Shown piece after piece: positions 13,603 to 48,902 of a stretch of DNA of 48,902 nucleotides (position 1 is the stretch's first letter; the number at the start of each line of letters is the position of its first letter). The translations under genes and the position numbers were made by a program. The notes beneath the pieces were generated by a model. It was given only the letters and a program-made list of their open reading frames with translations, made no database searches and was not told where the DNA came from. Source of the stretch: an uncultured bacterium (GTDB lineage: Bacteria; Bacillota_I; Bacilli_A; RFN20; CAG-826); the NCBI GenBank assembly GCA_949299195.1, contig CASFZN010000020.1, forward strand, positions 1-48,902, written 5' to 3'.

Positions 13603-13657
13603 TAGTAGTTATCTAGTAGTTTTCTAGTATTTTATAAGTACTTATCTAGTAGTAAAT
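13603..13657. repeat. 11-bp phased TAGTA array, locus A (5 units)
   Basis: Units start at 13603, 13614, 13625, 13636 and 13647, exactly 11 bases apart: TAGTAGTTATC, TAGTAGTTTTC, TAGTATTTTAT, AAGTACTTATC, TAGTAGTAAAT. The array fills the space just upstream of the MerR-like start codon. The same consensus occurs at 40012 and 48254. Confidence 0.85.
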
Positions 13658-38603: not shown

Positions 38604-40004
38604 TTATTTAATTATTTCATCTATTTGATTATATAAATCTTTAAGGGTATTATCGTTATTAATGACGATTATATCCTTATTTTTATTATCTATAAAATAA
38701 TCTTTATTTAATTTTAATGAAACTTCAATATTTTCATTTCTTTTAGTTAAATTTTTAATTTGAGTATCTTTACTAACTTCAATAACTAAGATTTTATCGA
38801 ATAAATATTCATAATGAGCCTTAAAAAGAAGTGGGACTTCAACTGCAATCTTATTTTTATATTTATCTTTATTAGTAGTAATTATATTAATAAGTTTTTC
38901 TTCAAGTGCTTTATATAATATTTTTTCAGCTTCTTTTTTAATATTTGGATTATTAATTAATATTTCTCTTACTTTTTCTCGATGAGCTTTATTATTAATA
39001 TCGAATCCTTTAAAGTAGATTTTTGAGAATTTATACGATAAATATGGGTCTTTATAGAGATCACGAATAAGTTCGTCACTTGATAAGACTAAATATCCTT
39101 TTGTTTTTAAATACTTTAAAACTTCGCTTTTTCCTGATCCAATTGGTCCAGTTATTCCAATAGAAGTTTTTAATTCATGATTAATTTGACAGTTAGGACA
39201 AAAAGTAGTGCCTCTTCCTTTTAAGAATATTTTGTGGAAAATAGTGCCGCATCGAGGACAAATTTCACCCTCTTTACCATAACAAAGTAGTTCGTTTTGG
39301 AATTTTCCATCGATTCCGTTACTTGAAAAAGAGTGGATTGTAGAGCCACCAAGTTTAATAGCTTTTTCTAAAACAATTTTTGAGTTATCAAAAATTTCGA
39401 TATATTTTTCATCACTTATATCTTTTCCTTTGGTTAAAGGGTTAACCTTAGAAAAATATAAGATTTCATCGGCATAAATATTACCGATTCCTGAGATATT
39501 AGATTGTTCTAAAAGTAAAGATTTTATCGGAATATTTCGTTTAAATTTTTTGGTTAATTCACCATATTCTTCTCGATTTAATTTATTAGCTTCAGGACCT
39601 AGTTTTTTAATGAATTTAAGCTCACTAACTTCATCGTTTTTTGCTAAATACATAAGTCCAAATTTACGGGTATCATTAAAAGAAAGGACCGTATCATCAC
39701 TAAAATAGAAGATTAAAGTAGTAGAAGAGATACGAATATTATTGTTTTTATTATTATGGTATTGGAATTTTCCTTCCATTCTTAAATGGATAATAAGGGT
39801 ATAATCTTCACTTAATCTAAAGAAAATAAATTTTCCATATCGATCAACATCAATGATAGTTTTATTTAAAATTTCTTTTTTAAAATTATTGATATCAGAT
39901 TGAATGAGTCTATCAAAAAAGATATCTACTTTAGAGATGGTTTTTCCTTTTATTAAAGGGATAAGAGTATTTTTTACAGTTTCTACTTCAGGCAATTCAG
40001 GCAT
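38604..40004 (-). CDS. mutM-coaE: Fused formamidopyrimidine-DNA glycosylase (MutM) and dephospho-CoA kinase (CoaE)
   Basis: 466 residues as one frame. The first about 278 residues are a full MutM/Fpg: catalytic N-terminal PELPEVETVKNTL (Pro2, Glu3), the helix-two-turn-helix region SNISGIGNIYADEIL, and the zinc finger starting at Cys249 (CPRCG...CPNC). After a short NHELKTS linker a complete CoaE follows: P-loop GPIGSGKS (286-293), LSSDELIRDLY, EVPLLFKA, and a VSKDTQIKNLTKRN lid. There is no Met or ribosome site at the junction, so the fusion is obligatory. It removes oxidised bases from DNA and phosphorylates dephospho-CoA. In Bacillales and lactobacilli the two genes are neighbours. Confidence 0.95.
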   Translation of the reverse strand: MPELPEVETVKNTLIPLIKGKTISKVDIFFDRLIQSDINNFKKEILNKTIIDVDRYGKFIFFRLSEDYTLIIHLRMEGKFQYHNNKNNNIRISSTTLIFYFSDDTVLSFNDTRKFGLMYLAKNDEVSELKFIKKLGPEANKLNREEYGELTKKFKRNIPIKSLLLEQSNISGIGNIYADEILYFSKVNPLTKGKDISDEKYIEIFDNSKIVLEKAIKLGGSTIHSFSSNGIDGKFQNELLCYGKEGEICPRCGTIFHKIFLKGRGTTFCPNCQINHELKTSIGITGPIGSGKSEVLKYLKTKGYLVLSSDELIRDLYKDPYLSYKFSKIYFKGFDINNKAHREKVREILINNPNIKKEAEKILYKALEEKLINIITTNKDKYKNKIAVEVPLLFKAHYEYLFDKILVIEVSKDTQIKNLTKRNENIEVSLKLNKDYFIDNKNKDIIVINNDNTLKDLYNQIDEIIK

Positions 40005-40011
40005 AATTTAA

Positions 40012-40049
40012 TACTAGAATACTACTGGAAAACTACTAGAAAACTACTA
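40012..40049. repeat. 11-bp phased TAGTA array, locus B (4 units)
   Basis: On the minus strand four units, TAGTAGTTTTC, TAGTAGTTTTC, CAGTAGTATTC and TAGTATTAAAT, repeat with an exact 11-base period; their cores are at 40049-40045, 40038-40034, 40027-40023 and 40016-40012. It fills the 52-base gap between polA and mutM::coaE. A nearby AACTACT/AGTAGTT inverted repeat (40042-40058) overlaps the end of polA. Confidence 0.85.
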
Positions 40050-45914: not shown

Positions 45915-46919
45915 TTATTTTTTAATTCCTTCTTTAATTTTATCATCACAAGCTTTAATAAAAGCATCTAATTCACTTAAATCTTTGATTTGTGCTCCAC
46001 TAGCTTGATTATGTCCGCCGCCTTTAAACATCATTGCGACTTCATTGACATTATAATATCTACTTCTTAAAGAAATTCTAAAACATGGTTCAGTAATATC
46101 TTCAGTGATTGAACACCAAATATTAATTCCTTTAATTGAAGAAAAGATATTAACATGTTCTTTTCCTTGTTCAGATGCTAGATTTAAATCATCTAAATCT
46201 TTTTGAGTTAAAACATAATATGCAGTACCAGCTTCACTAATTTTATAGTTATTTAAAACATATTTAGTAAATTCTAAATCTTTAATATCTTTTTCATACA
46301 TTTTTTCATAGATACTAACAATATCAAGTCCGGTTTCTAATAAAATTGAAGCGACTTGGAAGGTGTGAGTAGTAGTAGAACCAAATAAATAGCGACCACT
46401 ATCTCCAACAATTGCGGTATAAAAATAATATGCAGCTTCTTTAGAAATATTATTGTTTTCAAAATGTAATAACATATTAACTACAAGTTCACTTGCAGCA
46501 GCTAAAGAAGTATCAACAATTGAAATATCAAAGATATTATCGGTTTCTGGGTGATGATCGAGTTTAATTTTAAAACTTGCTCTTTCAAAACGTGGATCAG
46601 CGATTCTTTTTTTATCACCAACATCAACAATAATTGCTAAAAAATCTTCATCAAACCAAGTATCAGATTCTTTATCAACATTTGGATAAATCAATCCTTC
46701 GCCTGAAAAAGTAACGTGATTATCACCAAAAACTTTAACTATTTTATTAGGATAGTTTTCTTCGATATATGTTTTAAGACCAAATTGAGTTCCTAAAGCA
46801 TCAAAATCAGGTTTAATATGTCTAAAAATAGCAATTCTATCGAATTCTTTGATTTTTTCTTCGATGAGTTTATATTCTTTTAAAAATTTTTCGCCTTCTA
46901 ATTTAATATATTCGTTCAT
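45915..46919 (-). CDS. nrnA: DHH/DHHA1 phosphoesterase NrnA (oligoribonuclease/pAp phosphatase)
   Basis: 334 residues: FRHIKPDFDALGTQFGLK (DHH motif I, metal Asp residues), VDVGDKKR, KLDHHPE (DHH signature), then a DHHA1 domain ending FKGGGHNQASGAQI. NrnA degrades short RNAs and pAp; related DHH/DHHA1 enzymes cleave pApA from c-di-AMP, linking it to the CdaA in this window by inference. The ATG overlaps the ackA stop (TAATG), so translation is coupled. Confidence 0.93.
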   Translation of the reverse strand: MNEYIKLEGEKFLKEYKLIEEKIKEFDRIAIFRHIKPDFDALGTQFGLKTYIEENYPNKIVKVFGDNHVTFSGEGLIYPNVDKESDTWFDEDFLAIIVDVGDKKRIADPRFERASFKIKLDHHPETDNIFDISIVDTSLAAASELVVNMLLHFENNNISKEAAYYFYTAIVGDSGRYLFGSTTTHTFQVASILLETGLDIVSIYEKMYEKDIKDLEFTKYVLNNYKISEAGTAYYVLTQKDLDDLNLASEQGKEHVNIFSSIKGINIWCSITEDITEPCFRISLRSRYYNVNEVAMMFKGGGHNQASGAQIKDLSELDAFIKACDDKIKEGIKK

Positions 46920-48130
46920 TAATTGTTTCCTTTCATATCAAGGTAAGCTTTATAAGCATCACGAGCTAACATGACTTCTTCATCGGTAGGAATAACCATG
47001 ACTTTAATCTTGGATTCTGGTTTAGTGATAGTGAAAGTAGTGCCTCTTTTTCCGGCATAATCTAAATCTCTATCATAAGCGATTTCTAAAGCTTCCTTAG
47101 TTCTATCCATGATCATTTCACGAGATTCTGGGGAGTTTTCGCCAATTCCGGCAGAGAAAATTATTAAATCACAGCCACCGAGTCTAACAAAATATTGACC
47201 AATGAAATCTGCAATTCTTCTTGCCCATAAATCTAAAGCGAGTTGTGCATCTGGATTTCCTTCTAAAGCTGCTTTTTCAACGTCTCTAGAGTCGTTAGAT
47301 ACGCCACTAACTCCATATAATCCGCTTTCTTTATTAAATTCTTGGAAGATAGTTTCATTATCTTTGCCACTCATCTTTAAAACTTGATAATAAACTGATG
47401 GATCTAAATCACCAGTTCTAGTATTCATCATAATTCCACCGAGTGGGGTAAGACCCATACTAGTTGCAACACATTTACCATTTTTAACAGCGGTAATAGA
47501 AGCGCCACTACCTAAATGACAAACAATAATACGTTTATCTCCGTCTTTTTCGATATATTTTTCACCGATTTCACTTAAATATTTATGAGAAGTACCATGA
47601 GCACCATATCTTCTAATCATATATTTTTCGGTATATTCCTTTTTAATAGGATAGGTGTAATCTTCTTTATCCATTGTTTGGTGGAATGCGGTATCAAATA
47701 CAGCAACTGCAGGAGTATTTGGTAATACTTTTTTAAATGCATCAAAACCAACAAGGTGAGCTTTATTGTGAAGTGGTGCGAGTGGAATTAATGATTCAAT
47801 TTTTGAATAAGTATCTTCATTGAATAATGCGGATTCCTTAAAATATGGACCACCTTGGACAACTCTATGTCCTGTAGCTTTAATTTCATCTAAATGTTCA
47901 ATAATTTTATTTTCAAGTAAAGCATCCATAACGATTTGGACTGCGACACCATGATCTTTTACTGGAACAATAGTCTTTTTGCTTTCTCCGTTTATTTTAA
48001 TTTGGAAGATTGCATCTTCGTGTCCAATTCTTTCAACGATACCAGAAGTAATAACTTTTTCCTCTGGCATCTCATAAAGTTTGAATTTAAAACTGCTTGA
48101 ACCACAGTTTACTGCCATTATTTTTGCCAT
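46919..48130 (-). CDS. ackA: Acetate kinase
   Basis: 403 residues: AVNCGSSSFKFKLYE at the N-terminus, VAVFDTAFHQTMD, RRYGAHGTSHKYL, CHLGSGASI, GLTPLGGIMMNTRTGDLDP and FSAGIGENSPESRE, all standard AckA signatures. It makes ATP and acetate from acetyl phosphate, complementing the AdhE branch. AAGGAG precedes the ATG. First gene of ackA-nrnA-dnaE-polA-mutM::coaE. Confidence 0.98.
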   Translation of the reverse strand: MAKIMAVNCGSSSFKFKLYEMPEEKVITSGIVERIGHEDAIFQIKINGESKKTIVPVKDHGVAVQIVMDALLENKIIEHLDEIKATGHRVVQGGPYFKESALFNEDTYSKIESLIPLAPLHNKAHLVGFDAFKKVLPNTPAVAVFDTAFHQTMDKEDYTYPIKKEYTEKYMIRRYGAHGTSHKYLSEIGEKYIEKDGDKRIIVCHLGSGASITAVKNGKCVATSMGLTPLGGIMMNTRTGDLDPSVYYQVLKMSGKDNETIFQEFNKESGLYGVSGVSNDSRDVEKAALEGNPDAQLALDLWARRIADFIGQYFVRLGGCDLIIFSAGIGENSPESREMIMDRTKEALEIAYDRDLDYAGKRGTTFTITKPESKIKVMVIPTDEEVMLARDAYKAYLDMKGNN

Positions 48131-48253: not shown

Positions 48254-48319
48254 TAGTAAATATCTAGTAGTTTTCTAGTAGATATTTAGTACTAATTAAA
48301 TACTTGATAAGTACTGATT
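48254..48319. repeat. 11-bp phased TAGTA array, locus C (6 units)
   Basis: Units start at 48254, 48265, 48276, 48287, 48298 and 48309: TAGTAAATATC, TAGTAGTTTTC, TAGTAGATATT, TAGTACTAATT, AAATACTTGAT, AAGTACTGATT. The exact 11-base step holds even where the core is degenerate. It lies in the divergent gap between ackA and the ktrB/trkH-like gene, about 60 bases upstream of the ackA -35. Confidence 0.82.
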
Positions 48320-48379: not shown

Positions 48380-48902
48380 ATGAATCTGATTTACAAACTA
48401 AAAAAGAATATTAATCCCTTTTTCTTAATTGCATTATCGTTCTTAATTCTTCTTATTATAGGATCATTGATTTTATGGTCACCAATTTCTTTGCAAGAAG
48501 GAGTAAGCATTTCTTATATTGATTCTTTATTTACAACCACAACTAGTTTATGCGTTACGGGTTTAGTATCAATAAAAGAAGGAATTGGCGATACATATAA
48601 CCTTTTTGGTAGAATTTTTATCTGCATTTTAATCCAAATTGGTGGTTTAGGAGTTATGACTTTTGTAACTTTATTCTTTGTTACTTTTAGAAGAAGATTA
48701 AAGATTACTGAACAAACAATGGTTAAAGAAAACTGGAATTTATCGAGTTTAAAACAAATTAGAAAGATATTTTATTATATTCTTGCTGTTGTTTTTACAA
48801 TTGAAACAATCGGAGCAATTTTATCTTTCTTTTCGTTCTATTTTATTCATGATTTTTCACTTCAAGATGCAATAGGAATTTCTATTTTCCATAGCGTTAG
48901 TG
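48380..48902 (+). CDS. K+ transporter channel subunit, KtrB/TrkH family (N-terminal part)
   Basis: The frame is open from the ATG at 48380 to the window end (174 residues). It has a first membrane segment (about 14-33), then a pore loop with the filter-like TTTTSLCVTGLVS and a second membrane segment starting at FGRIFICILIQIGGLGVMTF, the hallmark of the KtrB/TrkH/TrkG superfamily. The next membrane segment is at about 127-150. AAGGT precedes the start. It would import K+ and could use either RCK protein encoded at 10039-11359. KtrB versus TrkH cannot be settled from this part. Confidence 0.9.
   Translation, partial: MNLIYKLKKNINPFFLIALSFLILLIIGSLILWSPISLQEGVSISYIDSLFTTTTSLCVTGLVSIKEGIGDTYNLFGRIFICILIQIGGLGVMTFVTLFFVTFRRRLKITEQTMVKENWNLSSLKQIRKIFYYILAVVFTIETIGAILSFFSFYFIHDFSLQDAIGISIFHSVS

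Follow-up and report, generated by a model that had tools for sequence, protein, structure and literature searches.

The sites that have been described around bacterial replication termini and Xer recombination sites differ in symmetry, density and associated DNA. The matS sites of MatP are palindromic and non-polar. In E. coli, FtsK is directed to dif by KOPS, the spacing of which, according to passages in two papers, is similar to the ~13-20 kb separating the arrays presented here (PMC5357621, PMC3140498), and a passage of the latter paper gives KOPS an even density over the whole genome (PMC3140498). The recombination site cer is described, in a passage of the former, as accompanied by accessory DNA of ~180 bp bound by PepA/ArgR hexamers (PMC5357621). 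A DNA word close to the one analysed here appears in a passage on Rok of B. subtilis, a winged-helix protein preferring TACTA/AACTA (PMC6212790).

The window, i.e. the whole 48,902-bp stretch of DNA that was analysed, corresponds to positions 1-48902 of contig C20 in a 22-contig assembly of 1.17 Mb, and the matches of a window protein among relatives include Candidatus Onthovivens and Bacilli MAGs. It contains three phased arrays with TAGTA cores:

13603-13651, plus strand: phased array of five units with four exact cores and one decayed core, ~114 kb from dif
40012-40049, minus strand: phased array of four units with three exact cores and one decayed core, ~88 kb from dif
48254-48319, plus strand: phased array of six 11-bp units with four exact TAGTA cores and two decayed cores

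The units of the last array are, in order, TAGTAAATATC, TAGTAGTTTTC, TAGTAGATATT, TAGTACTAATT, AAATACTTGAT and AAGTACTGATT. The original prediction had described it as six TAGTA units with an 11-bp step, and both the number of units and the step, which is 11 bp throughout, were recovered, whereas two of the six cores are decayed, namely to AAATA and AAGTA. It had also placed the same repeats at two other sites in the window, and these are the arrays at 13603-13651 and 40012-40049. The six-unit array is flanked by ackA (46919-48130, minus strand) and a plus-strand gene starting at 48380, which the original prediction had named a K+ channel gene, and lies ~79 kb from dif; at the orthologous place, ten relatives have a different sequence upstream of ackA. 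The array at 13603-13651 fills the whole gap separating two minus-strand genes, and the one at 40012-40049 sits in the junction of polA and mutM-coaE. The latter is absent in the same ten relatives, in which polA and mutM abut or overlap, so it represents a lineage-specific insertion. The gene next to it (38604-40004, minus strand) is a fusion in which a single frame of 466 aa codes for MutM (Fapy-DNA glycosylase) and CoaE (dephospho-CoA kinase); the matches in relatives cover the same span.

Shuffled sequences, whole-genome counts of the reversed pattern and the histogram of spacings all rule out chance and agree that the arrays constitute a repeat family and not accidental AT-rich sequence, as had been proposed. 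In the window, three cores at 11-bp steps with at most one mismatch have 7 matches versus 0.02 expected, a number reached in none of 100 shuffles. Over the whole genome there are 25 exact TAGTA triples versus 0 for the reversed control, as well as 65 exact pairs versus 5. Only the spacings of 11, 22 and 33 bp stand out in the histogram (64, 39 and 23 pairs, respectively). The lone 11-mer TAGTAGTTTTC occurs at the expected frequency (33 matches at up to two mismatches versus 36 expected), so the signal is the phased array and not the word. Coding DNA is not as rich in arrays either, since 58% of them are intergenic versus 6.5% of the DNA, with 47 of 112 located in ORFs called by a simple rule. 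The condition that would have refuted the original prediction, an equal frequency in coding DNA or in shuffles, was thus checked and did not hold. There are roughly 15-35 arrays per genome, and exact triples are present in 23 of 25 genomes of the same genus.

Contig C20 holds the replication terminus, with the peak of the cumulative GC skew and the flip of gene strand at ~128 kb, and dnaA is located on a different contig (C18). A dif-like 28-mer is found at C20:127677, and two relatives also have a dif-like site at their own skew flip; the dif pattern has a single match per genome in 25 of 59 relatives and never more than one. In nine genomes the density of arrays at growing distances from dif, up to 130 kb, is 7.4, 7.8, 6.4, 5.2 and 4.7 per 100 kb; near oriC it is at a background value of 0.34 per 100 kb, with 2 arrays in 583 kb (p ~ 7e-13 for the contrast). 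These genomes are metagenome assemblies of related, non-independent species with predicted dif sites. Ten controls, in which the motif or the spacing was varied, gave no comparable contrast between terminus and origin: reversing the motif or changing the spacing to any of four other values yields about 0-1.3 per 100 kb, and the control core TAATA, which is a common word, gives 2.2-3.2 per 100 kb near dif and 1.9 near oriC. The terminus contig carries 14 of the 19 array sites in genome G016 and 12 of the 17 in genome G019 (merged genome-wide matches), and within the terminus there is about one array per 10-20 kb. The idea of a link with the terminus was formed during exploration, and later genomes, families and controls were examined afterwards. 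In the same nine genomes, the 8-mer AATCGATA occurs 261 times in 1547 kb near dif and 51 times in 583 kb near oriC, a ~1.9-fold higher frequency at dif.

The arrays are directional. Among 108 arrays, 82 point toward dif and 26 away from it, with a ratio of 51:11 within 40 kb of dif, and for lone TAGTA words the ratio is 697:610. This polarity is partly confounded with gene direction, and convergent, divergent and against-the-fork contexts alone give 24:13 toward dif. Among the 24% of arrays that point away is the one beside dif in the window's own genome.

In most genomes with a located dif, an array lies ~85-180 bp from the start of dif and points at it; in families f1, f3 and f5 hardly any located dif lacks such a dif-side array. 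In f1 TACTA is found on the dif strand, so that TAGTA points at dif, the exception being the window's own genome, where the array is turned round; the array is on what we presume to be the XerD side, as judged by comparing the two halves of dif with those of known sites. Three f3 genomes (G036, G043 and G057) and the f5 genome G058 possess inward-pointing arrays on both sides of dif, with one additional pair in the opposite sense in G058, and a further f3 genome (G048) possesses an inward-pointing array on one side. Measured from dif, the positions of the first TACTA pair fall into clusters at 120, 132, 143, 153, 164 and 176 bp with a best period of 11.0 (Rayleigh R = 0.65, n = 44 genomes, a value reached by none of 5000 jitter nulls), although the first exact pair is also shifted by 11 when a unit is lost. 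The informative part is therefore the phase, which is held to ~3 bp despite diverged intervening sequence, and the helical phasing between dif and the array could partly reflect array units decaying at a fixed phase. Of the 59 locus rows scanned (with a few genomes represented twice), 29 have a DnaA-box-like TTWTCCACA ~100-132 bp downstream of dif; the array follows 11-41 bp after the box, the orientation of which is that of dif in nearly all the rows (L080-L124). No TTWTCCACA accompanies the dispersed arrays listed for the window's own genome.

A dif with an array 100-130 bp behind it was detected in 21 of 395 Bacilli genomes, versus 3 of 395 for the reversed control. All 21 come from one order, and in this sample from its families f1 and f3, with none among about 340 others. 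In f5 the dif-side array is mostly present, with G045 lacking it, and none was seen at the dif loci examined in families f8, f4 and f6. Family f1 has many triples away from dif and the order's other families only a few, suggesting an earlier origin of the dif-side array and a later spread over the terminus.

Twelve arrays common to two related species, chosen in one species only, were compared position by position: the cores have 1 change in 135 positions, the 6-bp spacers 17 in 90 and the flanks 651 in 4228 (Fisher p = 8e-7 for cores versus spacers). Conserved cores with drifting spacers are the usual pattern of protein-binding sites, and to this extent the original prediction of helically phased sites for proteins is supported. 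Over greater evolutionary distance the positions of the arrays turn over. Beside some arrays on contigs other than the terminus contig (L032, L035, L038 and L040), the palindrome GTTTCCACGTGGAAAC or a close variant recurs, often with a T-run; it is terminator-like, yet it also resembles a parS-type core.

As to the protein that might bind the arrays, the FtsK gamma domain was found in all 24 genomes tried. It is divergent in f1 and f3, scoring 36-53 bits, and intermediate in f5 (67-76 bits); other Bacilli and the array-free families mostly reach 71-100 bits, with 57 bits in the f8 genome G046. At the positions that we take, from general knowledge, to be DNA contacts, and which were placed by alignment, the recognition helix keeps R/K followed by D/E in most array-free families and is mostly changed at one or both places in the array-bearing ones; the gamma domain of f1 also has a different wing, again with positions by alignment. 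The recognition-helix residues vary within the genus while TAGTA stays constant, so a relaxed function is as possible as a new specificity. The altered gamma domain is the leading candidate reader. By inspection, none of the proteins of the window's contig that are also near dif in at least five other genomes stood out as a DNA-binding candidate. A genus-specific gene convergent with dif, seen downstream of it in L085-L103, has no Pfam match in the window's own genome (L025:932-1555), and its counterpart in L104 is PemK/MazF-like. About 4 kb from dif there is a gene for a phage-integrase-type (Xer-like) tyrosine recombinase (L024:16769-17647, C20:122768). The word GAAGAAG was considered as an ordinary KOPS word and rejected: it is strongly polar (915:147) but not over-represented (1.05-fold), so coding bias is inseparable from function.

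The clustering at the terminus, the dif-side copy in most relatives and the lack of a match to known terminus signals make the array look like a segregation element and not a gene switch. The arrays are concentrated around dif and polar toward it, the dif-side array is in register with it, and the cores are conserved while the spacers are not; the reading we prefer, to which we assign a probability of roughly 0.48, is that each array is a polar, helically phased element, putatively bound by a protein, that serves as a mark of the terminus and acts together with dif/XerCD. Subunits of one protein would occupy the TAGTA cores along one face of the helix, and their row would give the array its direction. 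This direction would steer the septal DNA pump FtsK, or a partner, along the terminus DNA to dif, where the dif-side array would bring the complex into contact with the Xer recombinase, the function thus being a KOPS-like system of orientation and loading with a new DNA code. Several observations fit a KOPS-like function poorly: KOPS of E. coli are evenly dense genome-wide in the passage cited above, whereas the arrays fade outside the terminus (PMC3140498); 24% of the arrays are misdirected, with the ratio falling to 24:13 where gene direction cannot explain the polarity; and the variation of gamma within the genus fits a relaxed domain as well as a retargeted one.

Confinement to the terminus, a spacing of ~10-20 kb and a mostly intergenic location would equally be expected of sites for a terminus-domain organiser, i.e. 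a counterpart of MatP/matS whose protein holds the terminus together or anchors it at the division site and does not orient FtsK. The turnover of positions with density retained and the copy beside dif are also in keeping with an organiser; the arrays, however, unlike matS, are directional and mostly point toward dif, MatP itself was detected in none of 41 genomes (with a positive E. coli control), and the genes conserved near dif offered no protein that stood out, so that we regard an organiser as possible but rather unlikely. It is less likely again that the array arose as an Xer accessory site, on which a protein, possibly together with DnaA, would occupy the array and TTWTCCACA, contact XerCD and impose directionality in the way of ArgR/PepA at cer, the copies across the terminus having spread later. 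The fixed side and the helical register in f1 speak for this explanation, as do the TTWTCCACA box between dif and the array in about half of the scanned rows and the finding that other families of the order have few exact triples but do have a dif-side array. It leaves unexplained the 5-8 arrays per 100 kb over ~100 kb on each side of dif, their polarity and their retention between two species, and the accessory DNA of cer, with its ~180 bp and PepA/ArgR hexamers, is unlike the array (PMC5357621).

Polar sites on both sides of the terminus would also suit a replication fork trap, a counterpart of Tus/Ter or RTP, but the quarter of the arrays pointing the wrong way would stall forks inside the replichore, and several units per site together with rapid turnover are unlike Ter sites, which makes a trap very improbable. 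Marginally more doubtful is a selfish or mutational repeat family accumulating in a less constrained terminus: the lineage-specific insertion into the polA-mutM gap is what such a family would produce, whereas the retention of cores while spacers drift disfavours both selfish spread and expansion by slippage, and arrays occupy the same site beside dif in families whose neighbouring genes differ. Like the arrays, the sites bound by OmpR-class proteins are direct repeats of 11 bp, and such proteins had been named in the original prediction as possible binders. The genome of the window codes for only two regulators of the OmpR type, and the arrays follow distance from dif and not promoters or gene function, being almost absent around oriC. 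Of the 59 intergenic arrays that could be classified, 8 (13.6%) are in divergent promoter regions, which account for 19% of intergenic DNA, convergent gaps are favoured (17 of 59, or 29%, versus 12%), and many arrays lie within ORFs; on these grounds of location an OmpR/PhoB-class regulon was rejected and is the least probable of the explanations considered.

Returning to the terminus-marking element, we consider it slightly more probable than its opposite that the arrays constitute a previously undescribed terminus-marking system of an order of uncultured Bacilli, in register with dif and distributed across the terminus, that has a retargeted FtsK gamma domain or another protein as its reader and replaces both the KOPS word and the matS palindrome; a literature search through titles, abstracts and passages of open-access papers returned no description of such arrays. 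How the terminus is marked and the septal pump is oriented where there is neither MatP nor a recognisable KOPS word is an open question in many low-GC Gram-positive lineages. Here a terminus mark can be read from the sequence alone and its evolution can be traced between related species, and the arrays offer a sequence handle for locating the terminus and dif in uncultured genomes.

With KOPS (E. coli FtsK) and SRS (B. subtilis SpoIIIE), the arrays have in common that they are polar, leading-strand biased, pointed to dif and ~12-20 kb apart near it, and the skew toward dif on both replichores is found in the arrays too (82:26), gene direction partly confounding it. KOPS and SRS are, however, single words of 8 (or 7) bp, while the arrays consist of 5-bp cores at exact 11-bp steps, other spacings being at background; KOPS are read by a gamma trimer on consecutive bases, while the arrays are phased and mostly intergenic; and KOPS cover the whole chromosome, while the arrays are restricted to the terminus (0.34 per 100 kb at oriC versus 5-8 near dif). 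Like the matS sites of MatP, the arrays are confined to the terminus domain around dif with a spacing of ~10-20 kb, but matS is a 13-bp palindrome without polarity, whereas the arrays are asymmetric polar direct repeats, one of which is in register with dif. The XerCD plasmid sites cer and psi resemble the dif-side array in having accessory DNA beside the Xer core that keeps to one side (as in f1) and to one helical register, but they are bound by ArgR/ArcA and PepA on plasmids, while the arrays are chromosomal and repeated across the terminus. The TACTA/AACTA preferred by Rok is the complement of TAGTA; Rok is a xenogeneic silencer of AT-rich foreign DNA without a terminus pattern, whereas the arrays are linked to the terminus.
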